NCBI RefSeq assembly: GCF_945957355.1
Contig: NZ_CAMFKM010000003.1
Coordinates: 372,001-436,000, forward strand
Source of the DNA: an uncultured Reyranella sp.
GTDB taxonomy: Bacteria > Pseudomonadota > Alphaproteobacteria > Reyranellales > Reyranellaceae
Direction of reading: 5' to 3'
Length of the DNA: 64,000 nucleotides
The notes under the pieces were generated by a model. The model did no database searches, was not told the origin of the DNA, and saw nothing but the letters and a program-made list of their open reading frames with translations. Positions within the stretch are counted from its first letter, which is position 1. Each line of letters opens with the position of its first letter. The translations under genes were made by a program, and so were the position numbers. This document shows positions 27,916 to 36,904 of this stretch, piece by piece.

Positions 27916-28887
27916 TCAGAGCCTGCGCATAACGATCTGCGAGCCGCCGCCCCAGATCGGGAGATAGGCCATCTTGTAGCCGGCGCCGCCGGTCACGATC
28001 GGATGGATCGCCTCGGAAGAGGAGGCGACGTCCTTGCCCTCATCGAACAGATACTGCTGGACCCGCTTGATGTCCCAGCCCTCGTGGCGGGCGATTTTCT
28101 CGGCGAGTTCGAGCGGCAGCAGAAGCACCTGTTCGCCTCGCGCGCTCTTGCGGCTCTGGCCCGACATCACGATCTCGGCACGCATGCCGGCGACGACCGG
28201 GTCGAGGATCGCTTGCGGTGTCGCGCCCTCGCCGTCGCCGGGCAGCACCTCGGCCGTGCCAGAAATGCCCATCACCGTGAGGGCGCTCTCGTTCTTCGCA
28301 AGCCCGTGGCGTTCCGTGAATGTCGGGAAGGGACCTTCACTCCTCTCGGCGAAGCACAGGGTGAACTTGGCAGGCTGGCCCATTGTCGCCATGTCGCCCG
28401 TGTCAGAGCGCGCACCGCCGATGTTGCGCAGGCAGAGCTGGAGGGCGCGGCCGATGCAGGCATTGGTGCGGTTGCCGGGACCGATGGTGTTCGTCAGGGC
28501 GTTGACGCCGAGCTGCTGCACGATCGGGCCGTGGAGGCAGAGCGCGACCGCGGCGCTGCCGGTGGTCGTGGCGATGCCGAGGAGATTGAAGTCGGGTTCG
28601 AGCACCGCCTGCGCCGCCGCCAGAACCACCGGCACCTCGGCCGGTACGCAGCCCGCGATCACGCATTGATAGGCTACGCTCTCGGGGGTGATGTCGCCGA
28701 ACATCGGCGGCATCATGCCTTGCGACTCCGAGCGGCCGCCGATGCCGGCGACCATCGCTTCCAGGCGCCGCCGGGTCGGCGGCACCAGGGGGAGGCCATC
28801 CGAGAGTTCGGCCTCCGTCAGGATCTGTTGTGCGCTCTCCCAAGCCGTCTGCTCGTCGACGACCGGCCAGCCGCACCACTCGTTCAT
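27916..28887 (-). CDS. Uncharacterised protein B of the selenoprotein operon (cysteine-poor paralog)
   Basis: A 323-residue soluble protein of unknown function, last in the minus-strand operon and overlapping the previous gene by ATGA. It is a clear paralog of the 345-residue protein before it. Both share GLPL(V)PPT near residue 35, an AGC..E.PVV segment, and NACIGRAL.L.L.N.GGA...GDM...G.PAKFTLCF (residues 142-179). Of the paralog's cysteines at 81, 113, 131, 135 and 179, only the equivalents Cys80 and Cys178 remain. The other positions are Ser111, Ala130 and Thr134 here. It may therefore be a non-catalytic partner in a heteromer. No signal peptide. Confidence 0.8.
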   Translation of the reverse strand: MNEWCGWPVVDEQTAWESAQQILTEAELSDGLPLVPPTRRRLEAMVAGIGGRSESQGMMPPMFGDITPESVAYQCVIAGCVPAEVPVVLAAAQAVLEPDFNLLGIATTTGSAAVALCLHGPIVQQLGVNALTNTIGPGNRTNACIGRALQLCLRNIGGARSDTGDMATMGQPAKFTLCFAERSEGPFPTFTERHGLAKNESALTVMGISGTAEVLPGDGEGATPQAILDPVVAGMRAEIVMSGQSRKSARGEQVLLLPLELAEKIARHEGWDIKRVQQYLFDEGKDVASSSEAIHPIVTGGAGYKMAYLPIWGGGSQIVMRRL

Positions 28888-29921
28888 CGGGCGATGCGCG
28901 TGCAGGCGACGGTGGTGCCGCCGAATGACGGTATGAAGGCCGAATGCTTGCCTGGACCGCCCGCCACAGTGATGTGGATGTCGTTCGGATCACGGCCGAT
29001 CGCCAGCCAGTCCCCGTCGGGCTTGTGGCCGGTGCTCTCGTAGGTGGCGAGGTTCTCGCGGGAGATGCGCGACAGGTGGATGCGCGAGCGCTTCCAGAGT
29101 TCCTCCCGGATGCTCTCGATCGTGAAGCCATCACGCTTCAGGGTCGCCGCATGTTCGGGGCCGATGATGAGGAACATCGGGCCCTTGCCGTACACGGTGT
29201 TGGCACCCGGATTGGACATGCCGCCGGCGAAGGTGGTGAGCAGGCCGTCGCCCGTGGTCGAACCGTGATCGTTGAGATTATGCGGACCTTCGCCCGACAT
29301 CACCGTAACGACCGAGTCGGTGGGCGCGAAGCCGCGCTGCACGTGATAGGGCGTCCAGGGATTCTCCTCCTCGTTCTCGCCGAAGCAGAAGGTGAACTTG
29401 GCGGGATTGCCCTGGGTCGAGCGGTCCATCTCACCGGGCTTGGCGCCGGCTACGTTCAGCAACATCAGGCCGAGCGCGCGGCCGATCGTGGCATTGGCCT
29501 GGCGGCCCTGGCCGAAGCAGTTGGTGCCGCAGTTGATGTTGAGTTCGTGGCGGATCGGGCCGCTCACCATGACCATCGGGGCGCAGGAGTGAGTGGTCGC
29601 AAGCGTGCCGTGCAGATTGTAGTCCGGATCGAGCACGCCGCGCAGGGCGGCGGTCACGACGGGGAAGTATTCGGGCTTGCACCCGGCCATGACGGCGTTC
29701 GCGGCAAGCGCCTGCAGCGTCGGCACGATCTGGCGCGGCGGGACGGGCGGGTAGGGGCGATTGTCGCCCCGGACCGTCTCGACGAACTTCGCCACTTTGG
29801 CCTCGGTGGGCACGAAGAGCGGCATGCCGTCGCTCCAGCCCTGTTCGTTGGCGTACTCGTTGAAGGCCTCGACATCCATGTCGCCGATGTCGATCACTTC
29901 CTGGTCGGCGATGTCCTTCAT
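28884..29921 (-). CDS. Uncharacterised protein A of the selenoprotein operon (cysteine-rich paralog)
   Basis: A 345-residue soluble protein of unknown function. Its ATG overlaps the stop of the selenoprotein gene (ATGA), and its own stop overlaps the next start. Conserved features are GWSDGMPLFVPT (residues 28-39), AGCKPEYFPVV (Cys81), TTHSCAP (Cys113), a C-GTN-C pair (Cys131, Cys135) and NPAKFTFCFGE (Cys179). Five cysteines in blocks shared with its paralog suggest redox or metal chemistry. The translational coupling predicts 1:1 production with, and probably physical association to, the UGSC selenoprotein. Not recognisable as any named enzyme. Confidence 0.82.
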   Translation of the reverse strand: MKDIADQEVIDIGDMDVEAFNEYANEQGWSDGMPLFVPTEAKVAKFVETVRGDNRPYPPVPPRQIVPTLQALAANAVMAGCKPEYFPVVTAALRGVLDPDYNLHGTLATTHSCAPMVMVSGPIRHELNINCGTNCFGQGRQANATIGRALGLMLLNVAGAKPGEMDRSTQGNPAKFTFCFGENEEENPWTPYHVQRGFAPTDSVVTVMSGEGPHNLNDHGSTTGDGLLTTFAGGMSNPGANTVYGKGPMFLIIGPEHAATLKRDGFTIESIREELWKRSRIHLSRISRENLATYESTGHKPDGDWLAIGRDPNDIHITVAGGPGKHSAFIPSFGGTTVACTRIAR

Positions 29922-30436
29922 TTGCCCGTGGCCTCGGTCAATCCCTTGGTCGCTGCTTCGATACGTTCCCGCAGTTCTTCGGCATTGAGGCCGCCGACGG
30001 GATGCTTGACCACGATCAGGCGCGGTTCGACCTTGCGGGCCTTCGCCTGGGCGAGGACCAGCGGCTTGAATGTCTCAGTGGCGATCACGTAGGCGGTGAT
30101 GCCGAGCTTCTCGAGTTCGAGGCTGTCGTGGAAACTCCACGATGAACAGCTTCCTCAATCCCCTAAGGCGAGGAGTGCCGCCTTGTAGTTCTTGGCGACC
30201 TTCTCGATCAGTTCCTTCGGCGCCGGCTGGCTGGCGCTGTTCTTGGCGTGGAAATGGATGTTGTCGACCGGACGATGGGCGCCCAGCATGGCGCGTACGC
30301 CTTCCAGCAACTCACGAGCGTTCGGCTTGGAATTGGAGATCAGCGCAATGGCGTCCGTCGCCCAGTTGACCGGCTGCAACGTCACCTTGGCGGGGCCGGC
30401 GGCGGCCATTCCGAAGCTTGGATTGAAGATACGCAT
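29918..30436 (-). CDS. UGSC-motif selenoprotein (in-frame TGA read as selenocysteine)
   Basis: The frame starts at ATG 30436 with a GGAGG site upstream and would conventionally stop at the TGA at 30155-30157. Beyond it the same frame stays open for 78 codons and ends with TGA at 29918-29920, coupled to the next ATG. Full product: 172 residues with Sec94. The TGA falls exactly in the motif GD-U-GSC, so Sec94 and Cys97 form a U-x-x-C redox pair. The N-terminal part (ALISNSKPNARELLEGV; SASQPAPKELI) and C-terminal part (SSWSFHDSLELEKLGITAYVIATETF) together match the UGSC family of bacterial (seleno)proteins as I know it. A stable hairpin immediately follows the TGA. It is preceded by a thioredoxin-reductase-like gene, the likely reductant. 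Conventional gene callers would truncate it to 93 residues. Confidence 0.88.
30119..30157 (-). promoter_or_regulatory. Bacterial SECIS-like hairpin following the Sec TGA
   Basis: On the minus strand, counting from the base after TGA, positions 13-19 (TCGTGGA) pair perfectly with 23-29 (TCCACGA) around the loop GTT at 20-22. Below a 5'-side bulge (TTCA, 9-12), GCTG (5-8) pairs with CAGC (30-33). GAG spanning the TGA can pair with CTC (34-36). The apical loop begins with G about 20 bases after the TGA, and a bulged U lies in the stem, as described for bacterial SECIS elements bound by SelB. The hairpin is within the coding sequence, as expected in bacteria. Confidence 0.75.
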
Positions 30437-30453
30437 GTTCGCTTTCCTCCACG

Positions 30454-31323
30454 CTACTTGTTCAACGCCGCGATAACCGACTTGGCGGCGCGTTGGCCGT
30501 CCGCGATGGCGTTGGCCAGATATTCCTTCGAACCGGACCTTACGTCGCCGGCGGCAAACACCAGCGGCTGGGCAGTCTGGCCCGCTTCGTCAACAACGAT
30601 ATGCCCCGTGGCGTCGCGTGCAAGCGAATCCGGCAGGAATTCCGCAGCGGGAGACCGCCCCTCATAAACGAACACCGCATTGGTCGGAATTCGGTTTCGC
30701 TGGCCGCTATCTTCGACCGTGACGGCCTCGAGACCGTTGCTGCCTTCGAGACCGACGATGCGTCCCGGCATGGCCGTGACGCCTTCGGGGAGCGGGCCAT
30801 TCGGCGTGCCGAGCATGGTGATGTCGCTGGCGATGCCGACCAGGACGGCGGCCTCGTAGGGCGCCCAGCCGGTCGCGCCGGCGATGATCACGGGCTGGCC
30901 GGCATAGAGCGGCCCGTCGCAGTTCGCGCAGTGGGAAAGGCCACGTCCTTCATATTCCTCCTCGCCGGGGAGACCGAGCTTGCCCTTGCTCATGCCGGTC
31001 GCAACGACGAGGGATCGCGCCGTGTGGTGCTCGCCGTCGGCGGTCTCGATCTCGAAGGGCCCGTTGCCGGAAATCGCCGTCACTTCGCCGAAGCCGATCT
31101 CGACGCCGGCGACGACGGCGTCGTCGGTCAGGCGCGCGGCCATAGTCGTGCCGTCGAAGATCTCCTCGAAATCGTGCAACTGGCCCAGGTTGATGATTTC
31201 GCCGCCGGGCGCGAGCTTGTCGAGGCAGAGCGCCTTCAGGCCCGCGCGGGCGGCTTCGGTGGCGGCGGTCAGTCCGGCAGGACCGGCGCCAATGACGATC
31301 ACGTCGTAGGAAGGGGTGTCCAT
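30454..31323 (-). CDS. Thioredoxin-reductase-like FAD oxidoreductase
   Basis: A 289-residue flavoprotein of the low-molecular-weight thioredoxin reductase family. The FAD motif is IVIGAGPAGLTAATEAAR (residues 9-26), the redox disulfide CANC is Cys132/Cys135 (HCANCDGPLYAG), and the second FAD motif is VFAAGDVRSGS. The central pyridine-nucleotide site is unusual. Where the family has GGGDSA, this protein has IIAGATGWAPYEAA, and the HRRxxxRA arginines are not present (MLGTPNG). It may use NADH, ferredoxin or another donor. It is first in the operon, 17 bases before the UGSC selenoprotein, and divergent from livH. Confidence 0.86.
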   Translation of the reverse strand: MDTPSYDVIVIGAGPAGLTAATEAARAGLKALCLDKLAPGGEIINLGQLHDFEEIFDGTTMAARLTDDAVVAGVEIGFGEVTAISGNGPFEIETADGEHHTARSLVVATGMSKGKLGLPGEEEYEGRGLSHCANCDGPLYAGQPVIIAGATGWAPYEAAVLVGIASDITMLGTPNGPLPEGVTAMPGRIVGLEGSNGLEAVTVEDSGQRNRIPTNAVFVYEGRSPAAEFLPDSLARDATGHIVVDEAGQTAQPLVFAAGDVRSGSKEYLANAIADGQRAAKSVIAALNK

Positions 31324-31510: not shown

Positions 31511-32425
<915 letters not shown>

Positions 32426-32428
32426 CGG

Positions 32429-33850
32429 ATGGGCCCGCGTCTCCCTCTCATGCTGAAGGATGCGGGCCTTACCGCCTTCGTCGCCGCGGCCCTCGGCATC
32501 TTCATCGTGGGCTTCCGCACCGTCGACCTGGGGGGCGGCAAGGGGCTGGGCTTCGACTATCACCTCGTCGATCTCGCGGTGGCCGTGGTCGTCATCTTCA
32601 TCGGCCGGCTCGGCCTCTCGATGGCGGCCAATGGTCTGCGCTGGCCGGCCATTGCGCTGGGTGTGGCGATGGTCGCGGCCGGCGCCTCGCCCATGAAGCT
32701 GCCGTCCGGCTTCCTGCACTGGTTCGTGGCGCTGGGCGGCGTACTGCTGGTGATCCGCGCGATCTGGCCATGGGCCAATGACGCCATGGGCGCTGCGGCG
32801 CGGACCCCGTCGGGTGTGGCGCTGGGCAAGGCCGGGTCCAAATGGTTTGGCTGGCTGTTGCTGGCCGCAGCGGTGCTGATGCCGTTCACGCCGTTCGCCG
32901 ACCAGAAGACGATGGATCTCGGCGTCCTGATCCTGACCTACGTGATGCTTGGCTGGGGGCTCAACATCGTGGTCGGCCTCGCCGGCCTGCTCGACCTGGG
33001 CTACGTCGCATTCTACGCGGTCGGCGCCTACGCCTATGCGCTGCTCAGCACGCAGTATGGACTGGGCTTCTGGACTGTCTTGCCGCTCGCCGGGATGATG
33101 GCGGCGCTGTTCGGCATCATGCTGGGTTTCCCGGTCCTGCGCCTGCGCGGCGACTACCTCGCCATCGTGACCCTCGGCTTCGGCGAGATCATCCGTCTCG
33201 TGCTGCTGAACTGGTTCGACCTCACCAACGGGCCGGCCGGCATCGGCTCGATCCCGGGACCGACCCTGTTCGGCGCCGTGTTCGCCGAGACGCCGCCGCC
33301 CGGCAAGCAGACTGTCTCGGAGATGCTGGGAATCGCCTTCGACGGCAATCACCGGCTGATCTTCCTCTATTACATCATCCTCGGCCTGGCCCTGATCACC
33401 AACCTCTTCACCCAGCGCATGCGGCGCCTGCCGGTCGGTCGCGCCTGGGAGGCGTTGCGCGAGGACGAGACCGCTTGCCAGGCGCTCGGCATCAATCCGA
33501 CCAACACCAAGCTCACGGCCTTCGCCATCGGCGCCATGTTCGCGGGCTTTGCCGGTTCCTTCTTTGCCGCCAAGCAGCGCTTCATCAGCCCCGAGAGCTT
33601 CGTGTTCATCGAGTCGGCGATCATCCTGGCCATCGTCGTCCTGGGCGGCATGGGCAGCCAGATCGGCGTGGTGCTGGCGGCCGTGCTGTTGATCGGCCTG
33701 CCAGAATGGTTCCGGGACCTCGGCAATTACCGCATGCTGGCCTTCGGCCTCGCCATGGTCCTGATCATGGTGTTCAAGCCGCGCGGGCTCATTTCCCATC
33801 GCGAGCCGTCGATACGGTTGCATCCCGCCGGCTCGGGAGGCGGGGGATGA
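32429..33850 (+). CDS. livM: Branched-chain amino acid ABC transporter permease LivM, with N-terminal extension
   Basis: A 473-residue permease. The LivM core (from about residue 165) has [54 protein letters not shown] and a C-terminal [28 protein letters not shown]. The first about 150 residues form four additional hydrophobic segments, making it longer than minimal LivM proteins (about 320-360) but similar to the LivM forms with a DUF3382-like N-terminal region. It starts 4 bases after livH and its stop overlaps the livG start (ATGA). Confidence 0.94.
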
Positions 33851-34648
33851 CCTCATCGCTGATCGAGATCGAGCACCTCACCATGCGCTTCGGCGGGCTG
33901 GTCGCGATAGACGACGTCTCGTTCTCGGCGCGATCGCAGGAGATTACCGCAGTCATCGGTCCCAACGGCGCCGGCAAGACGACGGTCTTCAACTGCATCA
34001 CCGGCTTCTACAAGCCGACGATCGGCCGGCTGACCCTGCGTGGCGCTGGCGGCGAATTCCTGCTCGAACGGATGCGCGGCCACGAGATCGGTCAGAAGGC
34101 CCGGGTGGCTCGTACCTTCCAGAATATCCGTCTGTTTCCCGGCATGACCGTGCTGGAGAACCTGATGGTGGCGCAGCACAACAAGCTGATGCGCGCCTCG
34201 GGCTGGAGCCTGCTGGGTCTTGTTGGCGTGGCGAGCTTCCGGCGGGCCGAGGCGGCCGCGGTCGACCTGGCGCGGCTCTGGCTGGAGCGCATCGGTCTGG
34301 TGGCGGATGCCGACCGTCCGGCCGGCGAGCTGCCCTATGGCGCCCAGCGGCGCCTCGAGATCGCCCGGGCCATGTGCACCGAGCCGGTGCTGCTCTGCCT
34401 GGACGAGCCGGCGGCCGGTCTCAACCCGCGCGAATCGGCCGAACTCAACCAGCTGCTGGTTTCGATCAGAGACCGGGACGGGATCGGCGTGCTGCTGATC
34501 GAGCACGACATGAGCGTCGTGATGAACATTTCCGACCACATCGTCGTCCTCGACTATGGCCGCAAGATCGCCGAGGGGGATCCGCTGGCGGTGCGCGGCA
34601 ACCCGGCGGTGATTCGCGCCTATCTCGGCACCGACGAGGAGGCGATCG

Positions 34649-34656
<8 letters not shown>
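33847..34656 (+). CDS. livG: Branched-chain amino acid ABC transporter ATP-binding protein LivG
   Basis: A 269-residue ATPase. Walker A is GPNGAGKTT, the Q-loop lies in [25 protein letters not shown], the signature region is [15 protein letters not shown], Walker B is [13 protein letters not shown], and the H-loop is [15 protein letters not shown]. The PYGxQRR signature and NP after the D-loop are typical of LivG. ATG at 33847 overlaps the livM stop. Its own stop lies 8 bases inside livF. Confidence 0.95.
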
Positions 34657-35373
<717 letters not shown>

Positions 35374-35377
<4 letters not shown>

Positions 35378-35736
35378 GCCCGCTCGACACCTTCATGTTC
35401 GACTGGTTCGGCGACACGCTGTTCAACGTGGTGCTGTTCAACATCGTGCTGATCGGGCCGGCGTCGTTCGCCGCCGGGCACGCCGTGGCTCTCACCTGGC
35501 GACCCTGGCCGCAGATCGTATTCTACACGGCGCTCCTGTCGGCGACCCTGCGCTTCCTCGACTATGCGCTGGCCAATGGCGAGTTATGGTCGTTGGCGGG
35601 ATTTGTACTGGGCTGGGCCGTGCAACTGGCGATCGCGGCCTTCGCCTTCAGGCTCACGCGCGCGCGCCAGATGGTGCGCCAATATCCATGGCTTTACCGG
35701 CGCAAAGGCTTGCTGGGCTGGGACGAGCGGCCCTAA
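35374..35736 (+). CDS. Small membrane protein next to the Liv transporter (DUF6867-like)
   Basis: A 120-residue protein with three hydrophobic segments (about residues 18-36, 50-62 and 70-90) and a basic C-terminus (RQMVRQYPWLYRRKGLLGWDERP). Coupled to livF by ATGA and located before the binding-protein gene. The length, context and C-terminal YRRKGLLGW segment correspond to the DUF6867 proteins that accompany Liv operons in alphaproteobacteria, as far as I recall. It may be an accessory membrane component of the importer. Function unproven. Confidence 0.75.
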
Positions 35737-35749
35737 TGTAACAGCCATG

Positions 35750-35765
35750 CTCCGCCAGTGCGGAG
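35750..35765 (+). other. Intergenic hairpin between the membrane protein and binding-protein genes
   Basis: CTCCGC-CAGT-GCGGAG is a perfect 6-bp stem with a 4-base loop, 27 bases before the binding-protein ATG. There is no T-run after it, so it is not a terminator. Hairpins here could stabilise the downstream mRNA and raise binding-protein output over the membrane components. Confidence 0.35.
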
Positions 35766-35791
35766 GAGGCTCAACGACAAGGGAGACCCGG

Positions 35792-36904
35792 ATGAAGAAG
35801 ATGTACGGCACACTGGCCGTCGCAGCCGTCGCACTGATGGCGACGCCCGCGTTCGCCCAGATCAAGATCGGCTCGGCCGGTCCGATGACCGGTTCCAACG
35901 CGGCGTTCGGCGAGCAGCTCCGTCGCGGCGCCGAGATGGCGGTCGCGGACATCAATGCCGCCGGCGGCGTCAACGGCCAGAAGCTCGAACTGGTGATCGG
36001 CGACGATGCCTGCGATCCCAAGCAGGCGACCGCGGTCGCCAACAAGATGGTTTCGGACAAGGTCGTGTTCGTGGCCGGCCACTTCTGTTCGGGTTCGTCG
36101 ATCCCGGCCTCGGACATCTACAAGGAAGGCAAGATCCTGCAGATCACGCCGGCCTCGACCAATCCGAAGCTGACGGACGACGCCGCTTCCAAGGGCAACA
36201 CCACGGTGTTCCGCACCTGCGGCCGTGACGACGTGCAGGGCACGACGGTCGGCAACTACATCCTGAAGAACAACAAGACCGCCAAGGTCGCGATCCTTCA
36301 CGACAAGTCGCCGTACGGCAAAGGCGTGGCCGACGAGACCAAGAAGGCCCTGAACAAGGGTGGTCTGCGCGAGGCCATGTACGAGGCCTACAACGACACC
36401 GACAAGGACTTCGCCGCGCTGATCAACAAGATGAAGCAGGCGAAGATCGACATCATCGTGCTGGGCGGCTACCACACCGCGGGTGCGCTGATCATCAAAC
36501 AGGCGCGCGAGCAGGGCCTGGCCGCGAACATGATGGGCTTCGACGCGCTCGAGACCGCTGAGTTCGCCCAACTGGGCGGCGCGGCGACCAACGGCGTGAT
36601 GATGTCGTTCCCGCCGAAGGCCGAGGACGACCCCAAGAATGCCGCCCTCGTTAAGAAATTCCGTGACGCCAAGTACAACCCGGAAGGCTACACGCTGTTC
36701 AGCTACGCCGCCGTGAAGGCCTGGGCCGATGCCGCCAACAAGGCGAAGTCGGTCGAGGCAGCCAAGGTCGCCGCGGCGCTGCGCTCGGGCAAGTACGACT
36801 CGGCCGTCGGCGTGCTCGAATTCGACGCCAAGGGCGACATCAAGGACGCGGTCTACGACATCTACGTCTGGAAGGACGGCAAGTCGGCTCCGATGAAGAA
36901 GTAG
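35792..36904 (+). CDS. livK: Branched-chain amino acid ABC transporter substrate-binding protein
   Basis: A 370-residue periplasmic protein. Sec signal peptide of about 22 residues (KKMYGTLAVAAVALMATPAFA, then QIKIGSAGP). The periplasmic-binding type 1 fold is seen in GPMTGSNAAFGEQLRRGAEMAVADINAAGGVNG, a disulfide-forming pair in DDACDPKQA and HFCSGSS, ILHDKSPYGKG and VLGGYHTAGALIIKQAREQGL. ATG at 35792 has a GGGAG site. Last gene of the Liv operon, followed by a strong terminator. Confidence 0.95.
   Translation: MKKMYGTLAVAAVALMATPAFAQIKIGSAGPMTGSNAAFGEQLRRGAEMAVADINAAGGVNGQKLELVIGDDACDPKQATAVANKMVSDKVVFVAGHFCSGSSIPASDIYKEGKILQITPASTNPKLTDDAASKGNTTVFRTCGRDDVQGTTVGNYILKNNKTAKVAILHDKSPYGKGVADETKKALNKGGLREAMYEAYNDTDKDFAALINKMKQAKIDIIVLGGYHTAGALIIKQAREQGLAANMMGFDALETAEFAQLGGAATNGVMMSFPPKAEDDPKNAALVKKFRDAKYNPEGYTLFSYAAVKAWADAANKAKSVEAAKVAAALRSGKYDSAVGVLEFDAKGDIKDAVYDIYVWKDGKSAPMKK

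Follow-up and report, generated by a model that had tools for sequence, protein, structure and literature searches.

Since 2008, UGSC has figured in the literature as an abundant selenoprotein family without an assigned function (PMC2398784, PMC9312934, PMC13188914). It is among the most abundant selenoprotein families in aquatic metagenomes, a thioredoxin fold has been suggested for it, and the GOS paper mentions a UGSC fusion to an "Unknown_1" domain (PMC2398784). Two other selenoprotein operons of unproven function, SAO and Tso, encode six or three selenoproteins (PMC13188914). Here we analyzed a stretch of 64,000 nucleotides (hereafter the window; contig NZ_CAMFKM010000003.1, positions 372,001 to 436,000) from an uncultured Reyranella sp., in which a four-gene operon (27,916 to 31,323 of the window) encodes a single UGSC selenoprotein amid a gene set other than those of SAO and Tso. 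This protein shares with the described UGSC family (PF24696, NF041046) the family assignment, the U-G-S-C motif and the exchange of selenocysteine (Sec) for cysteine (Cys), while the accounts read describe neither partner nor operon nor reductant. Our search of the open-access literature (supplements not covered) likewise found no description of a UGSC partner, operon, reductant or function, and, in agreement with an earlier note on this DNA, no pathway with this four-gene set.

We consider it fairly probable that the operon is one version of a widespread two-component Sec/Cys (selenol/thiol) reductase fed by thioredoxin (Trx) and thioredoxin reductase (TrxR). Its four genes lie on the minus strand in the order TrxR-like flavoprotein (289 amino acids (aa), 30454..31323), UGSC-family selenoprotein (172 aa, 29918..30436, carrying Sec94-Gly-Ser-Cys97 and ending in a second UGA), large partner A (345 aa, 28884..29921) and large partner B (323 aa, 27916..28887). 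The flavoprotein and UGSC genes are 17 nt apart, while the starts of A and B overlap the stops of UGSC and A, respectively, by 4 nt each (ATGA), so that the coordinates and spacing of the compact operon described in the earlier note were borne out. The same gene order was kept in 20 of the 20 homologous, window-type loci that were fetched, one genome of another family included, and is thus conserved far above chance.

The pairing of UGSC with a large partner is wider still than had been claimed. Each of the four UGSC genes in the Reyranella genome has an in-frame TGA and a large-partner gene alongside; across 28 genomes the partner was located within 215 bp on the same strand for 97 of 99 UGSC genes (of the two exceptions, one is at a contig start and the other is unexplained), and five genomes without UGSC were also without the partner. 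A scan using Cys in place of Sec, which detects only loci that have a Cys-type gene, found the partner adjoining UGSC in 40 of 40 loci from Actinomycetota, Bacteroidota, several proteobacterial classes, Myxococcota and Binatia, some of them close relatives, the independent cases being fewer. At L120:7722-9389 one open reading frame (ORF) of 555 aa encodes a fusion of UGSC with the large partner, in which CSTC replaces the UGSC motif. Judged by these sequences, UGSC together with one large partner makes up the conserved core, on which the four-gene set is an elaboration of one lineage. A second UGSC-like protein at L071:9638-10081, which adjoins a large partner of its own, lacks the C-x-x-C pair (MCDTGVSM) and may be a copy that has degenerated or been put to another use.

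What speaks most strongly for electrons being delivered to the U/C-x-x-C pair is that a thioredoxin-type reductant is attached to the module in two unlike ways. A TrxR-like flavoprotein gene adjoins the module in all 20 window-type loci as well as in L120 and L109, and TrxB genes are found near it in L049, L057 and L068. In 32 loci the link is covalent: a thioredoxin domain with a CxTC motif forms the N-terminal part of the partner, these proteins form one clade (support 0.995), and the N-terminus of the L049 partner matches PF00085 at 27.0 bits (threshold 23.5, E 5e-6) with CETC as its motif. A supply of electrons to U-x-x-C from thioredoxin-type proteins, as suggested in the earlier note, is supported by these loci. 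The flavoprotein of the window resembles thioredoxin reductase (TIGR01292, 185 bits, under the cutoff of 343; PF07992 also matched) in its two-domain layout, FAD motifs and CxxC, with GAGPAG, SHCANC and GDVRSG aligning with canonical TrxB; it differs in a shortened pyridine-nucleotide domain, from which the canonical NADPH motifs GxGxxA and HRR, present in the TrxB of L049 and L057, were missing in the 21 orthologs aligned. NADPH is thus not to be assumed as the electron source, and the donor may be NADH, ferredoxin or something else.

That the UGA at codon 94 of the UGSC gene (30155..30157, minus strand) is a sense codon and not an error is well supported. It is read as Sec on three grounds: the gene matches PF24696 at 128 bits (gathering threshold 25, residues 3-166) straight across the UGA, where Cys-type homologs have Cys; the host genome encodes SelD, a tRNA-Sec (anticodon tca) and, next to the latter, SelB; and a hairpin resembling a Sec insertion sequence (SECIS) element, UCGUGGA-GUU-UCCACGA (30126..30142, minus strand), begins 12 bases past the UGA. 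An Rfam search of the region returned a chance match only, and the hairpin, with its 7-bp stem and three-base loop, was therefore tested by comparing 40 distinct Sec genes with 42 Cys-type genes. At least six of the seven stem pairs were present in 39 of the 40 Sec genes and all seven in 34, and GU opened the loop in every one, while all seven pairs were found in just one of the 42 Cys-type genes. One stem position showed a compensatory swap from C-G to G-C, with which the encoded residues mostly shift jointly from Cys..Leu to Trp..Phe; the RNA structure thus explains the W and F of the window protein. Mean folding energy of the Sec genes (-12.7) was below that of their synonymous-codon null (-10.0, sd 0.5), while that of the Cys-type genes equaled their null. 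Selenium dependence, as the earlier note had it, is therefore upheld by both the host machinery and the hairpin; its UGSC selenoprotein stood as to the in-frame UGA, yet the family had already been named (PF24696) and is not new. Against the NF041046 equivalog the protein reached 118.6 bits, under the cutoff of 125, and this slightly divergent member is consequently assigned to the Pfam family rather than to the equivalog. In contig L042, from Myxococcales, selB is ~350 bp away from a Sec-type UGSC gene. The selD gene of the Reyranella genome (L013, contig C11, 122853-123767) is inside an open frame of ~801 codons and also matches, below cutoff, the oxidoreductase/SelD fusion model TIGR04369, so that it may encode a SelD fusion protein.

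The Sec region of UGSC is likely, albeit not proven, to be akin to the Sec domain of glycine and D-proline reductases. Compared via hhalign with a profile of PrdB-like proteins gathered with PF07355, UGSC scored 47.5 (42.8 when UxxC was masked), the maximum over 60 column shuffles being 19.5, and both UxxC and a later P-L-G/H-P motif were in register between the two profiles. The likeness to GRDB/PrdB selenoprotein B (PF07355) extends to Trx/TrxR as the likely electron source and to the presence of a partner subunit; on the other hand, the large partner of UGSC is not recognisable in Pfam as a pyruvoyl subunit (GrdE/PrdA), and UGSC hosts are mostly not amino-acid fermenters. A PrdB-like (PF07355) candidate selenoprotein, with an in-frame UGA in U-P-x-C, is encoded elsewhere in the same genome (L137, contig C14, ~137733-138092); across the class, 11 of 115 genomes have PF07355 matches, mostly with an in-frame TGA. 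The structural model of UGSC (predicted local distance difference test (pLDDT) score 90) is a five-strand alpha/beta domain in which Sec94 sits just ahead of the helix following the third strand. In Foldseek and VIA-align comparisons it resembled flavodoxin/Rossmann folds generally, many alpha/beta folds matching about equally well, and therefore no function follows from the fold, which is predicted to be flavodoxin/Rossmann-like and not thioredoxin-like.

Large partners A and B, which the earlier note took for two novel protein families forming a Cys-rich/Cys-poor pair, proved on alignment (33% identical) and in a tree of 108 large proteins to be two ancient, fully supported clades of one family that are not sisters. 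Nor did the contrast in Cys content hold: A has six and B seven, and both keep the two Cys (C81 and C179 of A) that are invariant across 38 family members. This phylogeny makes the A/B pair a long-standing combination of two lineages within the protein family, retained jointly in the genus of the window and in one other taxonomic family. Neither A nor B matched any Pfam or NCBIfam model, the 38 members yielded nothing beyond single weak matches in Pfam, and phmmer and profile searches of Protein Data Bank (PDB) sequences gave no match for this family or for UGSC. The AlphaFold2 (AF2) model of the large partner is confident (pLDDT 90, predicted template modeling score (pTM) 0.91), while solved structures offered no clear relative (best Foldseek E 0.02; best VIA match weak, with Z 5.4 over 110 residues and a root-mean-square deviation of 3.9). 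The Foldseek and VIA-align matches to encapsulin, Toblerone-fold hydrolase and fumarase were weak and scattered, and none was convincing as its fold.

From the Sec (or Cys) with a resolving Cys three residues on, located at a helix start of the predicted alpha/beta domain, a reaction course may be proposed. The large partner would bind the substrate, which Sec94 would attack; Cys97 would then displace the product, forming a selenenylsulfide that would be reduced by the TrxR-like flavoprotein here and by the fused thioredoxin elsewhere. A and B probably constitute a heteromeric partner that is co-produced via the ATGA overlaps, and the chemistry is probably like that of the Sec domain of glycine and D-proline reductases, in bacteria not known for Stickland metabolism.

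Several observations weigh against this proposal: i) three of the four UGSC loci in the Reyranella genome are without an adjacent TrxR-like gene, and a Trx fusion occurs in only one of those three, so that a dedicated reductant is not universal; ii) both of the otherwise invariant partner Cys are absent in L120, and these two are thus not essential in every version; iii) no described subunit with detectable similarity to the large partner emerged from Pfam; iv) among 40 natural control families compared with UGSC, an unrelated Amidohydro_2 hydrolase scored 38.4 (the next 26.7), which leaves the GrdB/PrdB link only a modest margin, and in contrast to GRDB/PrdB none of the 47 UGSC sequences scanned matched PF07355 directly at E<=1; v) no assays of any module member were found in the open-access literature.

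Genes around the module bear on what its substrate might be. In the window a Liv-type ABC transporter (LivH, LivM, LivG, LivF, a small protein and a periplasmic binding protein; 31511..36904, plus strand, by NCBIfam/Pfam) is divergent from the operon; its homologs border the operon in the majority of related loci, and it is a possible partner. Liv, TctC, TTT, TRAP and DctA transport genes were found nearby in various lineages, as were genes for amidase, Amidohydro_2, CoA-transferase III, AMP-ligase, HpcH/HpaI, MaoC, BKACE and 3-hydroxyacyl-CoA dehydrogenase-like proteins, which suggests that several lineages take up and degrade small organic acids, amides or amino-acid-like compounds. A catabolic enzyme, in which the module reductively activates or cleaves such a transported compound and feeds CoA-dependent degradation, is accordingly the best of the alternatives, and we give it somewhat less than an even chance; it is a specific form of the two-component reductase, and our confidences in the two overlap. 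The transport, amidase and CoA-related neighbours speak for it, whereas the neighbours vary by lineage with no shared pathway emerging: gene-neighbour clustering, part of which used shadow ORFs, gave no single answer as to a shared substrate pathway. The TctC association is weak in particular, since the Reyranella genome (G000) has 98 TctC/Bug-type solute receptor matches (a few of them fragments), an unusually large number. In 13 related loci (e.g., L100:7242-8084) the gene immediately beyond B, on the opposite strand, is an Amidohydro_2 (PF04909) gene; the window has none at this position. In four loci (L054, L055, L056 and L061; Cyclobacteriaceae, Ekhidna) a Dpp5-like S9 peptidase gene follows the module, with AraC-type and 3-hydroxyacyl-CoA dehydrogenase-like genes nearby and a BKACE-type gene in L061, a possible substrate clue.

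A general antioxidant role, in which UGSC acts like a peroxidase that clears hydroperoxides or oxidised protein thiols via Trx/TrxR and the large proteins serve as scaffolds or targets, appears unlikely. The combination of U-x-x-C with Trx-type reductants is typical of thiol peroxidases and repair enzymes, and published summaries place UGSC among Trx-fold proteins (PMC2398784, PMC13188914); the fold predicted here, however, is the five-strand flavodoxin/Rossmann-like one. Moreover, the conserved partner of 320-345 aa with its many invariant residues suggests specific substrate binding, and the presence of four distinct copies per genome, each amid other genes, points to different substrates.

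Detoxification of organomercury or of metals would, by analogy with the SAO selenoprotein operon proposed for organometallic compounds, be another use of such a module, and one that we hold to be very improbable. Sec binds mercury strongly, and organomercury was suggested in the earlier note; yet neither mer genes nor metal regulators were present among the neighbours examined. The analogy itself is to a system (PMC13188914) of six selenoproteins, against one here. Least credible of all is chance co-location or shared expression without a common reaction: operons can contain unrelated genes and the flavoprotein is missing from three of the four UGSC loci of its own genome, but UGSC and its partner adjoin in all 40 Cys-type loci, which span several phyla, and gene fusions of two kinds (thioredoxin to partner, UGSC to partner) also speak against it.

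The two-component Trx/TrxR-fed reductase thus remains the reading that we favour. A larger claim, which we put forward only tentatively and would not yet expect to hold, is that the module represents a third branch of Sec-dependent reductive bond-cleaving enzymes beside glycine and D-proline reductases, one that would occur in aerobic bacteria of several phyla with a substrate-binding subunit of a new fold and either a dedicated thioredoxin or a non-NADPH flavoprotein as reductant. Via its near-obligate partner, the thioredoxin fusion and the likely kinship to glycine and proline reductases, UGSC would turn from an orphan selenoprotein into a testable enzyme, and the published guess of a thioredoxin-like fold for the family would be corrected.

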